Origin: Halobaculum limi | GTDB lineage: Archaea > Halobacteriota > Halobacteria > Halobacteriales > Haloferacaceae | Direction: 5' to 3' | Length of the DNA: 64,000 nucleotides | Assembly (NCBI RefSeq): GCF_029490015.1 | Contig: NZ_CP120468.1 | Location: forward strand, 124,001-188,000 | Shown: piece after piece, positions 7,764 through 17,801 of the stretch | Numbering within the stretch: position 1 is the first letter of the stretch | Layout: the number at the start of each line of letters is the position of its first letter | Translations under genes and position numbers: made by a program | The notes under the pieces: generated by a model | The model's database searches: none | What the model was told of the DNA's origin: nothing | The model's input: only the letters and a program-made list of their open reading frames with translations

Positions 7764-8486
7764 TTACGCGTCGGCCAGTTCGGAGTGGGCGTCTTTGACG
7801 CCTTCGACCGTCTCGCGAACGGCGTCTGCGCCCTCGTCGTGGAGAAGGTCGCCGACGACGACGGCGTCGGCAACCTGTCCCATCGCGTGGGCGTCGTCGT
7901 AGTCGTGGATGCCACCGCCGTAGAACAGCGTCGACTCGTCGAGGGCGTCGTGGGCGGCCTTCACCGTCTCGCGGTCGCCGAGCGTCCCGGAGTACTCCAC
8001 GTAGACGATGTCCTGGCCGAACATCCGCTCGGCGACGCGGGCGTACGCGCCCACCTCGTCGGGCGTGAGGTCGCAGTCGGCGCTGGTCAACTGCGCCGCA
8101 GAGGCCTCGGGGTTGAGGACGATGTACGCCTCGGTGTGGGTGCGCTCCCAGTCGAGGTCGTCGGCGATACGGACCCACTCTTTGTGCGCGCCGGTGATCC
8201 AAAACGGCTCGCCCGCGTTGAACACCGTCGGGATGAGGTAGCCGTCCAGCGCCTCGTCGTCGACGACGACGCCCGGGTTCGACGGCTCTTGGTACAGCGG
8301 CACATCGTGTTCCTTGCACGCCTCGATGACGCGCGTGGCCTTCTCGGAGGTCACGTCGAGCGTGCCACCGATTTCGATAGCGTCCGTGCCGGTCTTGCAG
8401 GCGTCCGCGAACGTCTCGTCTGCGTGCAGGTCTTTGTCCGGGTCGATCTTCAGGATGTGGTCCCACTCCGCCCAGGGCGCACTCAT
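7764..8486 (-). CDS. Geranylgeranylglyceryl phosphate synthase (GGGP synthase)
   Basis: This enzyme makes the first ether bond of archaeal lipids by joining sn-glycerol-1-phosphate and geranylgeranyl diphosphate. The 240-residue TIM barrel has family landmarks: HILKIDPDK at strand 1, [12 protein letters not shown] at strand 2, [37 protein letters not shown] and the phosphate-binding [12 protein letters not shown] near the end. Length and motifs fit the haloarchaeal PcrB-like group. A TATA-like element at 8512-8520 lies 26-34 bases before ATG 8486. Confidence 0.95.
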
Positions 8487-8581
8487 ATTGGCTGTTGGTG
8501 GTGTGAGGAAGGCTAAAAAGGGCGCGGATGCGCGACACCCGAGGTTTGATAGTTCGTGAGCGGCCCTCGATTAGGTATCAG

Positions 8582-11500
8582 ATGAGTCAGGCGACGCTTG
8601 GGTCCGCGCCCTACCGCAACTCCAACCTCTTCTCGGGCTACTATCTCGACGAACGAGTCGACGACCTCGATGCGTGGGACTGCGACGAGGACGCACAGGC
8701 CGCGTTCGAGGAGCTACAAGCCCTCTGGGAGGGTGAGCGCGAGTTGGTCGACGGGTACAACGAGGACACGCTACTCGGGTCGTGGATCGACGAGGTGCTC
8801 GACGTACTTGGGTTCGATACGATTCAGGAGACATCGCTCCCGGAGACGAACGGCTACATCGACCGCGTCCTGTTCGACTCCCCGGAGGACCGCCGCGACG
8901 CGATGATGATGCAGCAAGACGGGATGGTCTCGGGGACGTTCGGGAAGGCGTCGGCGTTGCTGGAGGCGAAGCGGTGGGGTGCTTCGTTCGAGAAGACGTT
9001 CAGCGAACAGCGACAGTACCGCGACGCCTCCCACCAAGTGAAGTACTACCTCGAACGGACGCCCGATTCGCTTCGGTGGGGTGTGCTCACGAACGGGCGC
9101 AAGTGGCGACTGTACGGGATCAAAGACTACGAGACGCAGACGTACTACGAGGTCGACCTGCCCGAACTGCTCGAATCCGGGAGCGTGGAGGCGTTCAAAT
9201 ATTTCTACGTGTTCTTCCGGTCGGCGGCGTTCCGCGAGGTGTCGGGCACGTCGTTCCTCGACACGGTCTGGAACGAGTCGGAGACCGCCGCACAGGAGTT
9301 GGGCGAGGACCTGCAGGACAACGTCTTCACCGCACTCCGGGTGCTCGGCGAGGGCTTCGTCGAGTCGAACGACCTCGACATCGGCGACGACGATGCCGCC
9401 GTAACCGAGGAGGAACTGAAAGAGCACTCGCTGGTCCTCCTGTATCGGCTGATGTTCGTCCTGTACGCCGAGTCACGCGGCTTGATCAGCCCCGACGACC
9501 CGGCGCGACGCGCGGAGTACGACGAGCACTTCAGCCTCGACGAACTCCGACGAGAGATACACGAGGAGGTAAACTCGGGACAGACGTTCGACGAGTACAG
9601 CACCTACTCCACGTCGATGTGGAGTCGACTGGAGGACCTGTTTCGCCTCGTCGACTCCGGCGAGGAGTCACTGGGCATCCCGCCGTACAACGGTGGGCTG
9701 TTCGACCGCGACGAGCACGCTTTCCTCGCCGACCACGAGGTGTCGGACCGCTACCTCGCGGAGGTAGTGTACCGTCTCGGGACGACGCAGGCCGACAACG
9801 GCGAGGGGTTCGTCCTCGCGGACTACGCCGACCTCGACACGCGCCACCTCGGGACCATCTACGAGGGACTGCTCGAACACGAGTTCCGCATCGCACCCGA
9901 GGAGTACGCAGCCGTCAGCGAGGACGGCGGGCAGGTGTGGAAGCCCGCGACGGAGGTTAGCGTCGCCGACGCCGTCGAGACGGTCGAGGCGGGGGAACTG
10001 TACGTCGTCAACGACGACGGCGAGCGGAAGGCCACGGGCGCGTACTACACGCCCGACTACGTGGTGACGTACATCGTCGAGGAGACGGTCGACCCCCTCA
10101 TCGAGGAGATAGACGCGGACCTCGCGGACCGGGGCATCGAGGCGGGGACGCAGGAGTACGTGTTCCGCTTCGCCGACGAGGTGCTCGACCTGACTGTCCT
10201 CGACCCGGCAATGGGCTCGGGGCACTTCCTCACGAAGGCGACAGGCTACCTCGCAGAGCGCGTGATGGAACGCGCCCGTGAGGTGGAGTCGACGGCGGGT
10301 GTCCTCGACGAACAGGACATCCGACGGCGCGTCTCGCGGGAGTGCATCTACGGCGTCGACATCAACGATATGGCGGTCGAACTCGCCAAACTGTCGATGT
10401 GGCTGGAGACGCTCGCGGAGGAGAAACCGCTCGCGTTCCTCGACCACCACCTCAAGGCGGGCAACTCGCTGGTCGGGTCGGATATCAGCGAAGTGCTCTC
10501 AGAGGACGAGGAGGAGTCTGCGGACGGTCAGATGACGCTATTCGAGGCGGTAGCACACGCCCGCCAGCGCACGCTGGAGCACGTGATGGAGTTGATGGGC
10601 GACCTGCTGGCCATCGACAACGACGACTACGCAGACATCAAGTCGATGGAGGAGTTGTACGCCGAGATTCGCGACGACCCACTGTACAGTCGCCTGTTCG
10701 AGTTGGCGAATGTCCACACCGCCGAGCGGTTCGGCCTCGACGTGCCCGAAGGCGTCTACGAGGAGATGGCCGGCGCTATCGAGAGCGAGGCGGAGTGGAG
10801 TGAGGTGCGTGAGAACGACTGGTTCCGGTCAGCACAGACAATGGCGAAGGAGGAGGACTTCTTCCATTGGGAACTGGAGTACCCCGAGGTATTCTTTGAT
10901 CGAGACGGTGAGAAGCTTGGAGATGACGGGTTCGACGCAGTCGTTGGCAACCCTCCCTGGGGTCAACCGATTAGTGGTAAAGATTATCTGAAAACCAGAT
11001 ACTCGAAAGTCGTCAAGAGATTGCCGGACAGCTTTGCATACTTTTCTTATTTATCTCAGAAATTGGCCAAACAATCAAGTACATTTGGGATGATTGTTCC
11101 GAATGCATCTCTTTTCCAAAGTGAATACAGTAAGCTCAGGTATGAACTGACCAGTAATGGACTAACAAAAGTAATTGACCTCGGAGAAGGAGTATTCAAA
11201 GGAGTAGTTGCACCTGCAGCGATTATAATCGCTGATCGCAATAATCTGGGCGAATCGATTCAAATATCAAATTTACGGCAGCAATCAGAAATTCCTGACA
11301 GTGACAAATTGAAATTTCTGCTATACCCCAGATCAAATGTACTATCTGATGAGGGCCACACTATTCCAACATACAAAGCAGAAGTAAGCAAACTTCGGCT
11401 AGATACTCTAAAGCATAACACCCAATTCGGTAAGAAATTCGATGTGAATCAGGGCGTACAGACTGGTGGTGATGATATTTTCACCGTTACTTCCCCTGAC

Positions 11501-12778
11501 GTGTCGAAGCATAATTTAGAGTCCGAATACGTCAAACCAACTATCTTTGGGTCCGACTTGAAGCCCTATTTGATAGGCGGAAGAGAACAGTATGTGTTGT
11601 ACATTAATAGAAACACAAACAAAAAAAATATAAAAAATATACTAGAATACCTTGAACAGTACCGTGAGGAACTGGAATCAAATAGTGAAGTCAGTAAGGG
11701 CATCCGTCCTTGGTACTCGCTTCACCGGCCACGAAACCCAGAACTATTCGAGCAAGACAAAGTACTCTTGCGTCAAACTGGAGATACTCTCAAATGTGCT
11801 TTAGATACTGAGCATTATTTCAATATACACAGTCTATTGTGTCTGGCATACAAAGAAAATGCCACCCAACAAGTTGGATTGGGTGCTGTAGCTTGCATTC
11901 TAAATTCAACTCTACTAAGAGAGTTTTACGATAGCATTACACAAGAAAGAGGTCGTGTGTTCGCTGAGGTCAAACCTCAAAATATAAACAAGCTCCCCTT
12001 CCCCAATACCGAAGCCGTAGAAAGCAGCATCCTCTCTGATGATGTACTGTCAACTGCAGCTGGTGATCAAAAGCTCGAAGGTTCCCTTTCAAAAGCCTCT
12101 GAAAGCAAATATTCGTTGGTTGCCGCCTTGGAAAATCTATATCCAGTCAGATCAGATATTGTTCAAAGTCAAGACTCCCTCAATTTGTCTTTGCTTGACC
12201 ATCTTGGTACTTTCTCCGATGGTGATACCTTGTCCGACATCGGGCTGCCTCAACCCCCACAGAACGCTGCTGACTCGGTCCTACAGGAGACGACCGAGCA
12301 GAAGCCGAACCTTAGAGTTGGCCACGCGGAGGTGGCACGTGAATCAACCACTACTGTCGAAATTCGTCTCACCGCACGCTACAAACCCGACGACGAGGAT
12401 GCCCACGAGACGGACCGGTGGGGATACACCGAGACGGATCCACTACCGGCGCTTCGGATCACCGACCTGACCGAGACGGAAGCCGACCTCATCGAGCACT
12501 TCGTCCCCGTCGCCGTCGACGAGGCGGGCGGCTTCGCGGGCTTCCGCGAGACGGCGACCAAGACCAACTCGCTGGTCGACCGCCTGCGTGCGCTGACGCT
12601 GCCCGCCGTCGGCGACGTGCGCGACGGCCTGGAGAGTTACATCGAGACGAAGGAGCGAGCGGAGGAACTGGAGGAGCAGATCGAACGGACCGACGATCTG
12701 ATCGACGAGATCGTGTACGAACTGTACGGCCTCAGCGACGAGGAGATCGAGATCGTCGAGGAGGCGGTCAGGGAGTAG
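8582..12778 (+). CDS. Type IIG-like (Eco57I/PglX-type) fused restriction endonuclease-methyltransferase with AT-rich specificity region
   Basis: The 1398-residue protein combines several modules. Residues about 60-200 look like a PD-(D/E)xK nuclease: ALLEAKRWG (Glu128, Lys130), then HQVKYYLERT and GVLTNGRKWRLY, as in type I/IIG nuclease domains. The N6-adenine methyltransferase core has motif I DPAMGSGHFL (from residue 541) and motif IV NPPW (790-793). About 795-1220 is the region expected to hold target recognition, and the C terminus is a coiled coil (EELEEQIERTDDLIDEI). One protein would cut and methylate DNA. From about 10970 to 12240 the DNA is strongly AT-rich while both flanks are GC-rich, with no loss of frame. 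No separate R, S or BREX gene lies beside it. ATG 8582 begins the conserved part. Confidence 0.88.
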   Translation: MSQATLGSAPYRNSNLFSGYYLDERVDDLDAWDCDEDAQAAFEELQALWEGERELVDGYNEDTLLGSWIDEVLDVLGFDTIQETSLPETNGYIDRVLFDSPEDRRDAMMMQQDGMVSGTFGKASALLEAKRWGASFEKTFSEQRQYRDASHQVKYYLERTPDSLRWGVLTNGRKWRLYGIKDYETQTYYEVDLPELLESGSVEAFKYFYVFFRSAAFREVSGTSFLDTVWNESETAAQELGEDLQDNVFTALRVLGEGFVESNDLDIGDDDAAVTEEELKEHSLVLLYRLMFVLYAESRGLISPDDPARRAEYDEHFSLDELRREIHEEVNSGQTFDEYSTYSTSMWSRLEDLFRLVDSGEESLGIPPYNGGLFDRDEHAFLADHEVSDRYLAEVVYRLGTTQADNGEGFVLADYADLDTRHLGTIYEGLLEHEFRIAPEEYAAVSEDGGQVWKPATEVSVADAVETVEAGELYVVNDDGERKATGAYYTPDYVVTYIVEETVDPLIEEIDADLADRGIEAGTQEYVFRFADEVLDLTVLDPAMGSGHFLTKATGYLAERVMERAREVESTAGVLDEQDIRRRVSRECIYGVDINDMAVELAKLSMWLETLAEEKPLAFLDHHLKAGNSLVGSDISEVLSEDEEESADGQMTLFEAVAHARQRTLEHVMELMGDLLAIDNDDYADIKSMEELYAEIRDDPLYSRLFELANVHTAERFGLDVPEGVYEEMAGAIESEAEWSEVRENDWFRSAQTMAKEEDFFHWELEYPEVFFDRDGEKLGDDGFDAVVGNPPWGQPISGKDYLKTRYSKVVKRLPDSFAYFSYLSQKLAKQSSTFGMIVPNASLFQSEYSKLRYELTSNGLTKVIDLGEGVFKGVVAPAAIIIADRNNLGESIQISNLRQQSEIPDSDKLKFLLYPRSNVLSDEGHTIPTYKAEVSKLRLDTLKHNTQFGKKFDVNQGVQTGGDDIFTVTSPDVSKHNLESEYVKPTIFGSDLKPYLIGGREQYVLYINRNTNKKNIKNILEYLEQYREELESNSEVSKGIRPWYSLHRPRNPELFEQDKVLLRQTGDTLKCALDTEHYFNIHSLLCLAYKENATQQVGLGAVACILNSTLLREFYDSITQERGRVFAEVKPQNINKLPFPNTEAVESSILSDDVLSTAAGDQKLEGSLSKASESKYSLVAALENLYPVRSDIVQSQDSLNLSLLDHLGTFSDGDTLSDIGLPQPPQNAADSVLQETTEQKPNLRVGHAEVARESTTTVEIRLTARYKPDDEDAHETDRWGYTETDPLPALRITDLTETEADLIEHFVPVAVDEAGGFAGFRETATKTNSLVDRLRALTLPAVGDVRDGLESYIETKERAEELEEQIERTDDLIDEIVYELYGLSDEEIEIVEEAVRE

Positions 12779-12794: not shown

Positions 12795-13586
12795 TTAGCC
12801 CGCCAACTCCCGATAGTACGACACCGAGAACACGCCGAGAAACCCGCCGAACAGCGTCCCGCCGACGACGATGACGACCGCGATGGCGACGGGAGGCACG
12901 GTCGGAAGCCCACTGACGACCGACATCGCCGGACCGTTTGGCTGTGACAGCAGCGACGCGGCGGCCCCGACGAGACCGAACCCGCCCGCCAGCACCGCGA
13001 CCACCAGCGAGTAGCCGACGACGCTCACGAGGTTCGAGGAGACGAGCGAGGCGCTACGACGGATCGACTCGACGGCGTCGCAGTCGTCGATCACGATAGC
13101 CTGCGCGTAGAACTGGACGAAGAACGCGAGCAGGACGTACGCGAGGAGGAATCCACCACCGAGGATCGCCAGTCCAGCGAGGACGGGAGTACTGGGCGTT
13201 CCGCCGCCGGGGTAGAGGCTGACGACGGCGACGAAGACGCCGAAGATGGTGATGAGACCGAACAGGAGGTTCACCGCGACGACCGCGAGGTACACCAGAA
13301 ACACCTGGACGAAGTTCGCCACCCCCTCGCCGACGAACGTCGCCAGCGACGTGTGGCCGTCGAGTGCCTCGTCGGCCATCCCGACGAGTCCCGCGTGCAC
13401 GAACGGGACTGCGACGAGGTACAGCAACGACAACACGAGCGAGATGGCGCTGGCGAGCAACGGCGCACGAGACTGTAACAGCAGTTGCGGCGTCTGCAAC
13501 GCCGAGAGCACGAGGACCGGGACGAGGACGACGGGATTGCGGACGAGCGCCGAGGGCGTCCGTCGGAGGGCTGACAGGAGGGCCAT
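12795..13586 (-). CDS. Multi-pass membrane protein (DUF7847-like)
   Basis: The 263-residue protein has about six hydrophobic helices and an amphipathic stretch VIDDCDAVESIRRSASLVSSN between helices four and five, which is typical of haloarchaeal DUF7847 proteins (related to glycerophosphodiester-phosphodiesterase membrane domains). No catalytic residues are visible. ATG 13586 is favoured over a start 21 bases upstream because CTTTATCG at about 13608-13615 gives leaderless spacing. It converges with the restriction gene, 16 bases apart. The role is unknown. Confidence 0.7.
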   Translation of the reverse strand: MALLSALRRTPSALVRNPVVLVPVLVLSALQTPQLLLQSRAPLLASAISLVLSLLYLVAVPFVHAGLVGMADEALDGHTSLATFVGEGVANFVQVFLVYLAVVAVNLLFGLITIFGVFVAVVSLYPGGGTPSTPVLAGLAILGGGFLLAYVLLAFFVQFYAQAIVIDDCDAVESIRRSASLVSSNLVSVVGYSLVVAVLAGGFGLVGAAASLLSQPNGPAMSVVSGLPTVPPVAIAVVIVVGGTLFGGFLGVFSVSYYRELAG

Positions 13587-13661
13587 ACGCGAACAGGTCG
13601 TCAGCAAGCGATAAAGGTACTGACTGGTCGGAGCGAGGACTACGGCCCCGGCCGTCGGCGA

Positions 13662-16600
13662 TCAGTCCGCCTTCGCCTGCCAGCCCCGGATCGTGTCCGG
13701 GCCGACGCCGTCCATCTTCTCCGCGAGTGCGTCGGGTTCCATCTCCTTGAGCGAGGCCACGTCGTCGACGCCCGCGTCCTTCAGTTTCTTCGCCGTCTTC
13801 TCGCCGATACCCTCGATGGTCTCCAACTCCGAGCCGGCCTGGCGAGACTGGTACTCGCGGTAGTTGCAGATGGGACAGCCGAGTTCCCACGGTTCGTCGC
13901 CCGAGTGGACGACTAAGTGCGGGAGGTCGTGTTCCTCGCACTGCTCGTCGGTCACTTCGATCTCACCGCGCCGCGGGAGCGGCAGCGAGTAGTCGCAGTC
14001 GGGGTAGCGGGTACACCCGACGAGTCGCGACCCCGAGCGGAGCCGTTTGATCGCGAGTTCCCCGCCGTGTTCCTCGCCACAGTCGGGGCAGACGCCGATG
14101 ACCTCGTCTTCCTCCTCGTCGGCCTCGTCGGCCTGGCACTGCGGACAGCCGTGGACGAACGTCTTGCGCCCGGCGAGCATCTTGACGTGGTTCAGTTCGT
14201 GCTCCTCGCACGTCTCGTCGAGGATGAGCGGCTTGCCCGTCGACGGGAGCGGCAGGGTGTACTCACAGTCGGGGTAGCCGTCACAGCCGACGAAGTACGA
14301 CCCGGCCCGCGACTTCCGGACGAGGAGCGTGTCGCCGCACTCGGGACACGGCCCGAGTTGCTTGTCGGCCTTCAGCGACTTCTGAAGGTGGTCGCCGACC
14401 TCCTCGCGCGACTCCGCGAGTTCCTCGAACACGCGTTCGAGCATCTCTCGGGACTCGTCGGCCACCTCGTCGAACTCCTTCTCGCCGCTGGCGATGGCCT
14501 GCATATCTGCCTCCAGTTGGGCAGTCATCGCGTCGCTGACGATGTGGTCTGCGAACTCCTCGCTGGCCTCAACGACGGCCTTCGCCAGCCCCGTCGGGCG
14601 GGGCGGGTCGCTCTCGATGTAGCCGCGGTCGTACAGTTTCTGGATGACGTCGTGACGGGTCGAGTTGTGAACGATCACGCCACCCGTAACGGCGAAGTTG
14701 GGCGCCTCGTTCGAGACTGACAGGTCATACACAGCTCCATCGTACTCCCGCTCGTCAACCGCACGGACAGTTGTGTATGAGGGATATCCGAGAACCGTTG
14801 CGTATATCGAGTCCGTAAATCCGGATGCCGCGTAGCGAATCACCCGATTGCGGTCTGGGCTCCTGTTGCTCCCTTCAACCTCCGTTCGGATGTACTCGTC
14901 TTCACGGAGCTCGCGGAGAATATCGTTCACCCGCCCGCGACTGAGGCCAAGCTTGGCAGCGAGTTCGTCCGAGGTGCGAGCCTCTTCGCGGGCACATTCG
15001 AGCAGACGTGCTTTGTGCTGAACTACGTCGTACGCTCGAAGCCCGTCGAGTGCGCGGTAGAATTTCTCGTCGCTCGTGATCGGTACGATATCGACGAACC
15101 GTTCGAGGTTCTTCCGTCCCCGAATGTGGAGCTTGTGTTGATTCGTATCGATTTTCGAGTCGATCCCGAATTCGCTGAGCATCTCCCCGATGCCAGCAAG
15201 CAGGTCGTGGTCGATGTTCGAGATGAACGCCTTGCGCTCGCGCGAAACGTGCCCCTCGTCATCGAACATCGCTCCGATGAACGCGGGGGCACACTTCGCC
15301 GGTACTTCGGGGCAACCGTCACTCGTTACGGACTGAAGCACATAGTGGAGCACACGACCGACGCTTGACGGAATGTCGACATGGTACTTCTCTTTGTGGT
15401 GTTCCTCTCGGCCGGGATGCTGCCGAATCGGAGGTCGAATACCGAACAGCGTCTCGATGTCTGAGATGAACGTCTCGATCAGCCGGAGATCCGTATTGTG
15501 GTAGCGAACGTCGACGGCGTTTTCGGATTCATCGACGTGAATCGATCCGTCGCCGAGCAGGTTCCCGATTACACTGGCGAGCGTTGGCGTCCATCGTATC
15601 GGGAACGGGTTCTCGAACTCGATGTCATTGTTCAGTCCTCGGAGTGTATCGGGTCGGATCCCGAGTTCAGCGAGCAACCACACGGGTGCTCCTCGGCGCC
15701 CGGTCTCTATCGAGGAGATCCGCCTCTGATCAGTGCCGAGACGGGTCGCAAGCTCACGTTGTGTTTCACCAGTATCGGCGCGGGTCTGTTCAACTGACGT
15801 ACCACAATCAACTCCGAAAAGCTTCGTCGAATCGGTGGCATCATCGACAAATTCCTCCCACGAGACGGCGGTGGGTGCGCCGGTGGTCGTTGGGTGATTC
15901 GACGGCGGCGCCCGAGCTGTCAACAGTTCGTCGCCGGGAGAGACTCTGGCCGCTGGTATGACCTCATATGAGTCGCCGGAGCGGACGTACATTGGGTGGT
16001 CGTCGGTGACAGAGAGGGCCCCCGAATCCGAGGTGACCTCCACTATCCGTTCGGTCGACTCCAACGGGCGTCTGCTGACCAGCTCGCTGGCGAATTCACT
16101 CGTTTTCTCCTCTCCCTCTGCAAAGGATATCGTCTGTGGTCCGCCGGCTGTCGTTCCGATATCGGTTGCTCCGTCCGCAAGCACGACCTGCTCTTCCTCG
16201 AAGAGATCAGCGACTGGGCGGCGTTCGATATCCCCGTTCTCCGTCCGTGCGAGCACAGGCGTGTCACCGGTAAGGCACTTCGTCCCGATACCGAGGTCTT
16301 CCATTTTCTCGATGAGGCGCGACTGGCCGTACCGCCGCGGCGGTTGGGTCTGCTTCGCCTCGAACTCGGTGTCCGTGATGGTCAGCGCCTCGCCTTCGGT
16401 CACGTCGGGGACGAAGCTCTCGTTGGTCGAGAGGTACGGGTACACCGCGTGGTAGCCCTCATCGAGGAGGCGCTTCCCGTTCGCCTTCAGCGAGAGGGGG
16501 CCGTCGTTGACGCCGACGGCGTCCTCACCCTCGTCCACCTCGCTGACGACGCGGAGGTGCTCCCACTCGGCGTCGGGCGCACACGTCGCGAGGAAGCGCC

Positions 16601-17801
16601 GGACGACGAGTTCGTACACGTCCCACTCGTCGTCCGACAACTCCGAGGCCGCCGGGAGTTCGCCCGTCGGGTGAATCGGCGGGTGGTCGGTCGTCTCCTC
16701 GTCGCCCTCGGTAGGCGTGATGTCGTCCAGTTCGAGGAGCGATTCGGCGTCGTCGCCGAACTCACGGCCCATCGAGAGGTCGTCGAGGAGTTCTCGCTCG
16801 TCCAAGTCCTCGGGGTAGACCGTGTTGTCCGTGCGCGGGTAGGTGATGTAGCCGGCGGTGTACAGGTCCTCGGCCATACTCATCGCACGCTGGGCAGAGT
16901 AGCCGATAGAGGAGGCCGCGCGGATGAACTGCGTCGTGTTGAACGGCGCGGGCGGTTCGTCCGTCCGGCGGCGACGACGTACGGAGGAGACGGTCGCCGT
17001 CTCTGCCACCTTCAGGCGGTCGTAGACGGCCTCGGCGGTCGCCTCGTCCCAGACGCGTTCGGCCTCGGTGCCGTCGTCGTCCTCGTAGAAGTACTGCGCC
17101 TCGAACGCGTCGGCGTCGGCGTCCGCCTTCAGGAGGTCGGCGAACAGTTCCCAGTAGTCCTCGGGGTCGAACGCCTCGATTTCGCGCTCGCGGTCGACGA
17201 TCAGTTTGAGCGTCGGCCCCTGCACCCGACCGACGGAGATGAAGTCGTCGCCCAACTGCCGCGCGGACAGCGAGAGGAACCGCGTCAGCGACGCCCCCCA
17301 GATGAGGTCGATGATCTGCCGGGCCTCGCCCGCGGCGGCCAGGTCGAAGTCGATCTGATCGCGGTTCTCGAAGGCCTCGGTCACCTCACGCTGGGTGATC
17401 GAGGAGAACCGAACCCGGTCGACGGGCACGTCCTCGTTCACCTCGCGAATGAGTTCGTACGCCTCCTTGCCGATCAACTCTCCCTCACGGTCATAGTCGG
17501 TCGCGATGACGACCCGATCCGCCTCCCGCGAGAGGAGTCGAAGCGCCCGGACGATGCCCTCCTGTGTGGGTCGCTTGCGGACGGGTGCGTCGATGAGTTC
17601 CACTGGCTCTACGTCGCGCCAGTCGTCGTACTCCGGCGGGAAGTCGACCGCGACGACGTGACCCGACAGTCCGATACACCGGGTTCCGCCCCAGCAGTAG
17701 ACGTTGACGCCGGCGCGACGCTCCGTGTCGAAGTTCTCCCCCGAGAGAATCTCCGAGAGTCGTCGTGCGGCGTTGTCTTTCTCGGTGACGATCAGTTCCA
17801 T
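13662..17801 (-). CDS. topA: DNA topoisomerase I (type IA) precursor containing an intein
   Basis: The precursor has 1379 residues; removing the 538-residue intein leaves 841, normal for a haloarchaeal TopA. The TOPRIM domain (1-150) has Glu7 and the DxD of TDYDREGE (102-104). The catalytic tyrosine is Tyr321 in GYITYPRTDN. The intein interrupts the conserved sequence LGIGTK/STRHDV, which corresponds to the bacterial GIGRPSTY motif. After the core come Cys-rich zinc-binding units (CPECGD, CEEHELNH, CPQC, CPDCGEE, CPIC) and a helix-hairpin-helix end (IEGIGEKTAKKLKDAG). The enzyme relaxes negative supercoils through a 5'-phosphotyrosine intermediate. TTTACC at about 17833-17838 is a plausible TATA element. 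Confidence 0.96.
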   Translation of the reverse strand: MELIVTEKDNAARRLSEILSGENFDTERRAGVNVYCWGGTRCIGLSGHVVAVDFPPEYDDWRDVEPVELIDAPVRKRPTQEGIVRALRLLSREADRVVIATDYDREGELIGKEAYELIREVNEDVPVDRVRFSSITQREVTEAFENRDQIDFDLAAAGEARQIIDLIWGASLTRFLSLSARQLGDDFISVGRVQGPTLKLIVDREREIEAFDPEDYWELFADLLKADADADAFEAQYFYEDDDGTEAERVWDEATAEAVYDRLKVAETATVSSVRRRRRTDEPPAPFNTTQFIRAASSIGYSAQRAMSMAEDLYTAGYITYPRTDNTVYPEDLDERELLDDLSMGREFGDDAESLLELDDITPTEGDEETTDHPPIHPTGELPAASELSDDEWDVYELVVRRFLATCAPDAEWEHLRVVSEVDEGEDAVGVNDGPLSLKANGKRLLDEGYHAVYPYLSTNESFVPDVTEGEALTITDTEFEAKQTQPPRRYGQSRLIEKMEDLGIGTKCLTGDTPVLARTENGDIERRPVADLFEEEQVVLADGATDIGTTAGGPQTISFAEGEEKTSEFASELVSRRPLESTERIVEVTSDSGALSVTDDHPMYVRSGDSYEVIPAARVSPGDELLTARAPPSNHPTTTGAPTAVSWEEFVDDATDSTKLFGVDCGTSVEQTRADTGETQRELATRLGTDQRRISSIETGRRGAPVWLLAELGIRPDTLRGLNNDIEFENPFPIRWTPTLASVIGNLLGDGSIHVDESENAVDVRYHNTDLRLIETFISDIETLFGIRPPIRQHPGREEHHKEKYHVDIPSSVGRVLHYVLQSVTSDGCPEVPAKCAPAFIGAMFDDEGHVSRERKAFISNIDHDLLAGIGEMLSEFGIDSKIDTNQHKLHIRGRKNLERFVDIVPITSDEKFYRALDGLRAYDVVQHKARLLECAREEARTSDELAAKLGLSRGRVNDILRELREDEYIRTEVEGSNRSPDRNRVIRYAASGFTDSIYATVLGYPSYTTVRAVDEREYDGAVYDLSVSNEAPNFAVTGGVIVHNSTRHDVIQKLYDRGYIESDPPRPTGLAKAVVEASEEFADHIVSDAMTAQLEADMQAIASGEKEFDEVADESREMLERVFEELAESREEVGDHLQKSLKADKQLGPCPECGDTLLVRKSRAGSYFVGCDGYPDCEYTLPLPSTGKPLILDETCEEHELNHVKMLAGRKTFVHGCPQCQADEADEEEDEVIGVCPDCGEEHGGELAIKRLRSGSRLVGCTRYPDCDYSLPLPRRGEIEVTDEQCEEHDLPHLVVHSGDEPWELGCPICNYREYQSRQAGSELETIEGIGEKTAKKLKDAGVDDVASLKEMEPDALAEKMDGVGPDTIRGWQAKAD
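14664..16277 (-). mobile_element. Mini-mobile intein in TopA: LAGLIDADG homing endonuclease plus two HTH-like segments
   Basis: The intein covers precursor residues 509-1046 (538 aa). Its first residue is Cys (block A CLTGDTPV), block B has the TxxH motif (VTDDHPMY), and it ends with VIVHN followed by extein Ser, so splicing would use Cys1, the terminal His-Asn and Ser+1. Two dodecapeptide motifs, IGNLLGDGSI (237-246) and FIGAMFDDEGHV (333-344), mark a LAGLIDADG endonuclease. Before it, residues about 160-210 (TQRELATRLGTDQRRISSIETG) look like an XRE-type helix-turn-helix. After it, about 433-466 (TSDELAAKLGLSRGRVNDIL) resembles a winged helix. GC content is lower than in the extein, fitting recent acquisition. 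Confidence 0.93.

Follow-up and report, generated by a model that had tools for sequence, protein, structure and literature searches.

What does an adenine-thymine (AT)-rich block inside an otherwise guanine-cytosine (GC)-rich restriction gene tell us: that a piece of DNA has arrived from a foreign donor, or that the block encodes a domain which is AT-rich wherever it is found? The question is raised by a type IIG restriction-modification (RM) gene of Halobaculum limi, located in a 64,000-nucleotide stretch of contig NZ_CP120468.1 (hereafter the window, to which all coordinates refer). The initial annotation of this locus proposed that the recognition part of the gene had been replaced by recombination from a low-GC donor. 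We propose, with high confidence, that the block is an exchangeable recognition module, swapped among relatives by recombination, and that its AT-richness is a property of the pool of modules, not the trace of one event.

The open reading frame (ORF) spans 8528 to 12778 on the forward strand. Residues are numbered here from the upstream ATG at 8528, which makes the ATG at 8582, the start that matches the homologues, residue 19. In 200-base windows the GC content is 0.60-0.69 before position 10800, 0.37-0.45 at 11000-12200 and 0.60-0.69 after approximately 12300, an overall drop within the gene from about 0.64 to 0.41. When three segments are fitted to third-position GC (GC3), the change-points fall at 10889 and 12385, the segments have values of 0.87, 0.40 and 0.89, and the log-likelihood improves by 169. 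To this extent the locus is as first described, an AT-rich block within a GC-rich frame that stays open for 1398 codons. The edges originally placed near 10970 and 12240 mark the protein-variable part well, as protein similarity among relatives ends right after the NPPW motif (10949-10960) and returns near 12185, but the composition tract is wider. Its AT-rich codons start about 20 codons before NPPW and reach about 65 codons into the conserved C-terminal part. The genomic background was taken from 364 kb of sequence, made up of 15 chromosomal pieces and the window, in 3448 windows of 1.2 kb with a mean GC of 0.656 (sd 0.045). The type IIG gene holds the lowest-GC 1.2-kb stretch of this sample, with nothing elsewhere below 0.479, and the internal contrast in synonymous GC of its ORF is the largest among 44 long ORFs.

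Judged from its sequence, the product is very probably a single-chain type IIG enzyme, in which a PD-(D/E)XK nuclease is followed by a helical connector, an adenine methyltransferase, a TaqI-like recognition domain and a conserved tail (Table 1). Nuclease, adenine methyltransferase and recognition domain thus lie in one polypeptide, the arrangement by which type IIG enzymes are recognized. Profile searches matched the PF07669 (Eco57I) methyltransferase, N6_Mtase and a TaqI_C domain. Among 43 homologues the nuclease residues D112, A147, K148 and Q170 are invariant, and position 146 is either E or D. Foldseek with the N-terminal model alone returned weak matches; when VIA-align 2 was run on these, the nuclease of the type IIG enzyme BpuSI ranked first (Z 10.2, 143 residues, 3.8 A), followed by DrdV and HsdR. 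The helical part after the nuclease resembles BrxX and type I M subunits in fold, and the methyltransferase with its target recognition domain (TRD) matches CamA and M.BseCI. The catalytic motifs are kept in this copy (D112, E146, K148, DPAMGSGHF and NPPW) and there is no stop. The conserved nuclease residues, the domains and the BpuSI-like fold all uphold the original assignment to type IIG. The further claim that the region after NPPW is the recognition part needs an amendment: it does contain the TRD, but the second half of the methyltransferase fold also lies there, and the module consists of both. Domain borders inside the module are approximate, as they rest on profile matches and on a structure model of moderate confidence (pLDDT 74.8).

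Relatives of the gene, at any match level, are found in 79 of the 86 genera of the class that were searched. For the comparisons below the homologue set consists of intact frames of at least 1200 amino acids, with one genome per species; as the homologues are related by descent, counts among them are not independent tests. When the full-length homologues are aligned, identity collapses after NPPW/Y and recovers at LNLSLLDHLG (residue ~1220), which divides the proteins into a body, a module and a C-terminus. Bodies that are 76-97% identical usually carry modules only ~20-30% identical. In 27 pairs the body identity is 94% or more, and in 23 of these the modules are less than 40% identical or match over a short stretch only. 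The converse is also seen, with modules 74-75% identical on bodies that are 42-49% identical (L131/L160 and L025/L150). An example is the genome G015, which hosts two copies (L017/L071 and L032): their bodies are 96% identical, their modules are unrelated, and one copy lies on a 240-kb contig (a plasmid), the other on the chromosome.

The phylogenies tell the same story. Tree distances of body and C-terminus are correlated (rho 0.48, p 0.002), whereas those of body and module are not (rho 0.03, p 0.25), and two body clades switch 14 times on the module tree compared with 3 times on the C-terminal tree. Forcing a body clade on the module data costs 1547 log units (approximately unbiased test, p 6e-43); the same clade is not rejected by the C-terminus data (p 0.15). 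Agreement between separate segment trees had been named at the outset as the result that would speak against replacement, and the trees disagree. Furthermore, synonymous divergence was compared in 71 pairs with close bodies. Its baseline is 0.25, it reaches 0.55-0.64 over the 15 codons that end at NPPW, and on the other side it falls from ~0.55 to 0.2 across residues 1220-1320. These pairs share genes and are not independent, therefore the gradient is a pattern and not a formal test. The gradients at both ends indicate that crossovers fall in the conserved flanks, tightly on the left and loosely on the right.

Across the family, then, modules have been exchanged, with junctions in conserved flanks and with intact catalytic motifs. 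That the exchange proceeds by recombination is strongly supported, in agreement with the initial annotation, by the tree discordance, the synonymous divergence gradients, the usually dissimilar modules between flanks that are 75-97% identical and the similar modules on diverged bodies. The TRD phylogeny is discordant with the flanks and the junctions lie in conserved flanking sequence, the two features by which an RM gene with an exchangeable TRD would be identified from sequence. In the mechanism that we propose, the exchangeable module would begin just after NPPW, end at about residue 1219 and come from a large shared pool; it would be swapped by homologous recombination in the conserved sequence at both sides, and AT-richness would be a lasting feature of this pool in these hosts. 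Methylation and cleavage should both follow a single recognition domain, and a replaced module should therefore shift the two specificities together yet keep them matched. By analogy with known TRD swaps, it is sound to expect that a new specificity would arise in one step.

How far does this apply to the H. limi copy itself? Because no donor or sister of its module was found, we infer from the family that its block was exchanged in the same way. Some observations weigh against the proposed explanation, and this is the first of them: searches with the module in family and class genomes (Halobacteria) gave best relatives of 24-33% identity. Plasmids gave no match, phages gave one weak match only, to Halorubrum virus HRTV-9, and nothing was confirmed in viral contigs and GTDB genome contigs. 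The second concerns the chromosomal site. In this genome (G000) and in G015 a type IIG gene lies between a GGGP synthase and a membrane protein, in the same orientation; in seven same-genus relatives the two neighbours are 80-822 bases apart and the type IIG gene is absent between them. The two same-site genes are 76% identical in the body, 88% in the C-terminus and 19% in the module, a contrast that supports exchange; however, because they are not sisters on the body tree, they may represent separate arrivals or a whole-gene replacement at a shared site. Third, rapid divergence in place could add to the diversity of modules, although it does not explain shared modules on diverged bodies. Finally, a change of specificity through this particular exchange is argued from analogy. 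For comparison, when two other modules of the family were searched in plasmids, their top matches were 48% and 38% identical and came from haloarchaea in both cases; bacterial matches were at ~31-37%. The H. limi gene is present in a single copy, and a search of the genome found no second, silent one.

If modules are exchanged, why are they AT-rich? In 131 non-redundant homologues the mean GC at fourfold-degenerate sites is lowest in the module (0.435), against 0.806 for the body and 0.738 for the C-terminus, and at synonymous sites the module lies below the body in 130 of them. The GC of the body tracks that of the surrounding locus (rho 0.79), whereas the GC of the module is independent of the body (rho -0.05) and at most weakly linked to the locus (0.17, p 0.054). 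The H. limi module is only the 40th lowest of the 131. Haloarchaeal HsdS genes have a synonymous GC of 0.43, versus 0.69 in their neighbours, in all 15 cases with a usable neighbour. In bacterial plasmid relatives the shift goes the same way but is mostly weaker (Thermus, from 0.93 to 0.62; Streptomyces, from 0.79 to 0.56; Nocardia, from 0.78 to 0.76). As it is family-wide and independent of the host, low GC is best described as a persistent trait of recognition modules in these hosts. It had been argued that finding the same AT-rich block in GC-rich haloarchaea would count against replacement. Equally AT-rich blocks are indeed there, but they are not the same block (~20-30% identity); AT-richness thus belongs to the module pool, and replacement still holds. 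A broader formulation is that the recognition modules of haloarchaea, type IIG and HsdS together, are a shared mobile pool that keeps a stable, AT-rich composition of its own (synonymous GC ~0.43) without amelioration to its GC-rich hosts, such that composition boundaries within genes mark units of exchange and not foreign donors. We regard this formulation as evenly balanced between right and wrong.

The AT-richness may reflect either an escape from a GC-raising force or constant passage through AT-rich replicons. The escape, an addition to exchange and not an alternative to it, is a tentative proposal of fairly low confidence: modules would evade a force such as GC-biased conversion, which needs a similar partner, and their low GC would be a mutation-driven equilibrium. 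When close pairs are polarised by an outgroup, the equilibrium synonymous GC of modules is 0.43, compared with 0.44 at present and with an equilibrium of 0.75 in bodies, and HsdS sits at the same 0.43. In the two closest pairs the AT-to-GC rate is lower in modules than in bodies (21/106 versus 36/81, p 0.0004) and the module does not drift toward the GC of its host. That said, the GC-to-AT rates do not differ clearly in these pairs (p 0.11), several module pairs are near saturation, and the test is carried by two pairs only; polarised substitutions over broad triples, also near saturation, were not relied on and closer pairs were used instead. Furthermore, gene conversion experiments in H. volcanii found no clear dependence on GC (PMC8223754), AT-rich codons also reach into the alignable flanks, and GC-rich modules exist.

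A recent, one-off import from a low-GC donor, with no amelioration so far, is unlikely. It would suit a module GC of 0.41 within a genome of 0.66, the spill of AT-rich codons into the conserved flanks and the charge of the module. Haloarchaeal modules are acidic as a group, with 16.6% aspartate and glutamate and a net charge of -0.06, compared with 12.2% and +0.01 in bacterial modules. The H. limi module, with 12.3% and a net charge of 0, is the least acidic of the 131 (z 2.6) and close to bacterial modules in charge, which hints at a recent arrival from a less salt-adapted organism, or merely at a strongly DNA-binding module. Nevertheless, the acid adaptation of the group implies that most modules have probably been resident in halophiles for long, and the searches described above found no close relative in plasmids, phages, viral contigs or genome contigs. 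With 130 of 131 homologues GC-poorer in the module than in the body, and this copy only the 40th lowest, low GC loses its value as evidence of a particular low-GC donor, the one claim of the initial annotation that we abandon. The last explanation, that recognition domains need AT-rich codons or residues and diverge fast in place without exchange, is disfavoured as a full account and very improbable: unrelated modules and HsdS do share the same low GC, but rare GC-rich modules (L292, L295 and L286, synonymous GC 0.80-0.89) argue against any absolute constraint, the effect is seen at fourfold-degenerate sites and hence is not forced by residues, and the tree discordance and the shared modules on diverged bodies require exchange.

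Swapping of recognition domains as such is already known, and several known systems share features with the H. limi gene. Type IIG enzymes of the BpuSI, DrdV and Eco57I families have the same single chain of nuclease, helical connector, methyltransferase and recognition domain; unlike these, the H. limi protein has a long conserved C-terminal tail beyond the TRD, and what is exchanged also covers the second half of the methyltransferase fold. The closest solved structures for methyltransferase and TRD, those of CamA, M.BseCI and M.TaqI, belong to stand-alone enzymes without a nuclease. The ModA phasevarion type III proteins of Neisseria and Haemophilus likewise have a variable recognition domain that lies between conserved 5′ and 3′ parts and is exchanged as a block, and the GC of the modA12 recognition domain is significantly lower than that of both flanks (PMC3311624). 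However, ModA is a type III Mod without a nuclease, and that study took low GC as evidence of transfer, whereas here it is family-wide and independent of the host; we found no prior report of such a pattern in the open-licence papers searched. HsdS is a variable recognition unit too, with the same low synonymous GC in haloarchaea, but it forms a subunit of its own, with two half-TRDs. Type IIG systems are abundant in Halobacteria (PMC10609329). By their published description, HVO_A0006 / HVO_A0237 of Haloferax volcanii is also a haloarchaeal type IIG gene with a PD-(D/E)XK N-terminus, but it is split and fragmented and lies near a XerC/D integrase (PMC4389544). The best PADLOC profile for the H. 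limi gene is DISARM DrmMI (6.9e-104), and bacterial relatives adjoin drmD and drmA. A DISARM identity was rejected, as no DrmD or DrmA helicase adjoins the gene, its neighbours being housekeeping genes (GGGP synthase, a histidine kinase and topoisomerase I). BREX PglX was also rejected (111 bits against a cut-off of 500).

Table 1. Features of the type IIG locus in window coordinates
Feature	Position	Strand	Basis
GGGP synthase, left neighbour; marks the syntenic insertion site	7764..8486	-	TIGR04147; synteny
Type IIG restriction-modification gene, intact, 1398 amino acids	8582..12778	+	ORF list; Eco57I, N6_Mtase and TaqI_C domains; homologue starts
PD-(D/E)XK nuclease residues D112, E146-A-K148, Q170	8861..9037	+	Conservation in 43 homologues; fold nearest BpuSI
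Methyltransferase S-adenosylmethionine (SAM) motif I, DPAMGSGHF	10202..10228	+	Near-invariant in homologue alignment
AT-rich tract as defined by GC3, ~1.5 kb, reaching into the codons of both conserved flanks	10889..12385	+	Change-point fit; synonymous divergence and GC3 across flanks
Methyltransferase catalytic motif IV, NPPW; on the left, high protein similarity ends here	10949..10960	+	Homologue alignment
Exchanged protein module, residues ~812-1219; 15-24% identity to aligned homologues whose bodies are 43-78% identical	10961..12184	+	
First module part, rest of the methyltransferase fold after motif IV, residues ~815-965 (approximate borders)	10970..11422	+	N6_Mtase match 798-923; CamA match 801-1177
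TaqI-like C-terminal specificity domain, residues 1004-1157	11537..11998	+	PF12950, 3.2e-15; fold near CamA, M.BseCI and M.TaqI
Conserved C-terminal part, residues 1220-1416, containing a long helix; homology for exchange on the right side	12185..12778	+	Up to 88% identity to same-genus copies; helix 882-920 of model
Membrane protein, right neighbour of the insertion site	12795..13607	-	Weak BPSS1780-family match; adjoins GGGP synthase in 7 relatives without the type IIG gene

Some relatives carry further pieces of the gene. In L034 (2115-13010) and L181 (5379-11008) the type IIG gene is immediately preceded by a XerC-type tyrosine recombinase (82% identical between the two) and a small ORF; beyond these two is an inverted partial copy with a different TRD and C-terminus, the arms in L034 being 490 nt long and 87% identical. 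This arrangement, seen only in these two relatives, could permit recombinase-driven switching of specificity. In H. limi there is one copy in the genome and no invertible arms or long repeat around the gene, which does not fit invertase-driven (shufflon-like) switching. In the relative L061 the gene is reduced to a 535-amino-acid ORF that joins residues 19-200 to 1186-1404 in frame, i.e. the nuclease start and the tail without methyltransferase or TRD. Many genomes also host fragments with only the C-terminus (residues ~1230-1416; L060, L062-L068, L110, L138, L158 and L184), and in some cases a full gene is followed by two or three of them in series, 1-2 kb apart. Such series were inspected as possible reserves of modules, but in L066, L110, L138, L158 and L184 the fragments had no separate orphan module between them. 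Elsewhere in the window, the DNA topoisomerase I gene (13662-17801, reverse strand) carries an intein at residues ~508-1050, with a GC of ~0.57, slightly below that of its host gene.

In this work, the swapping of recognition domains has been quantified for an archaeal class, and its junctions and boundaries have been resolved. When part of a restriction gene is low in GC, this is commonly taken as a sign of foreign origin, but it need not imply a foreign donor. The results also provide a practical map of ~130 natural modules on related bodies, which can be used to ask if one swap alters cutting and methylation together. Furthermore, the modules offer a natural comparison for studying how haloarchaeal genomes stay GC-rich.

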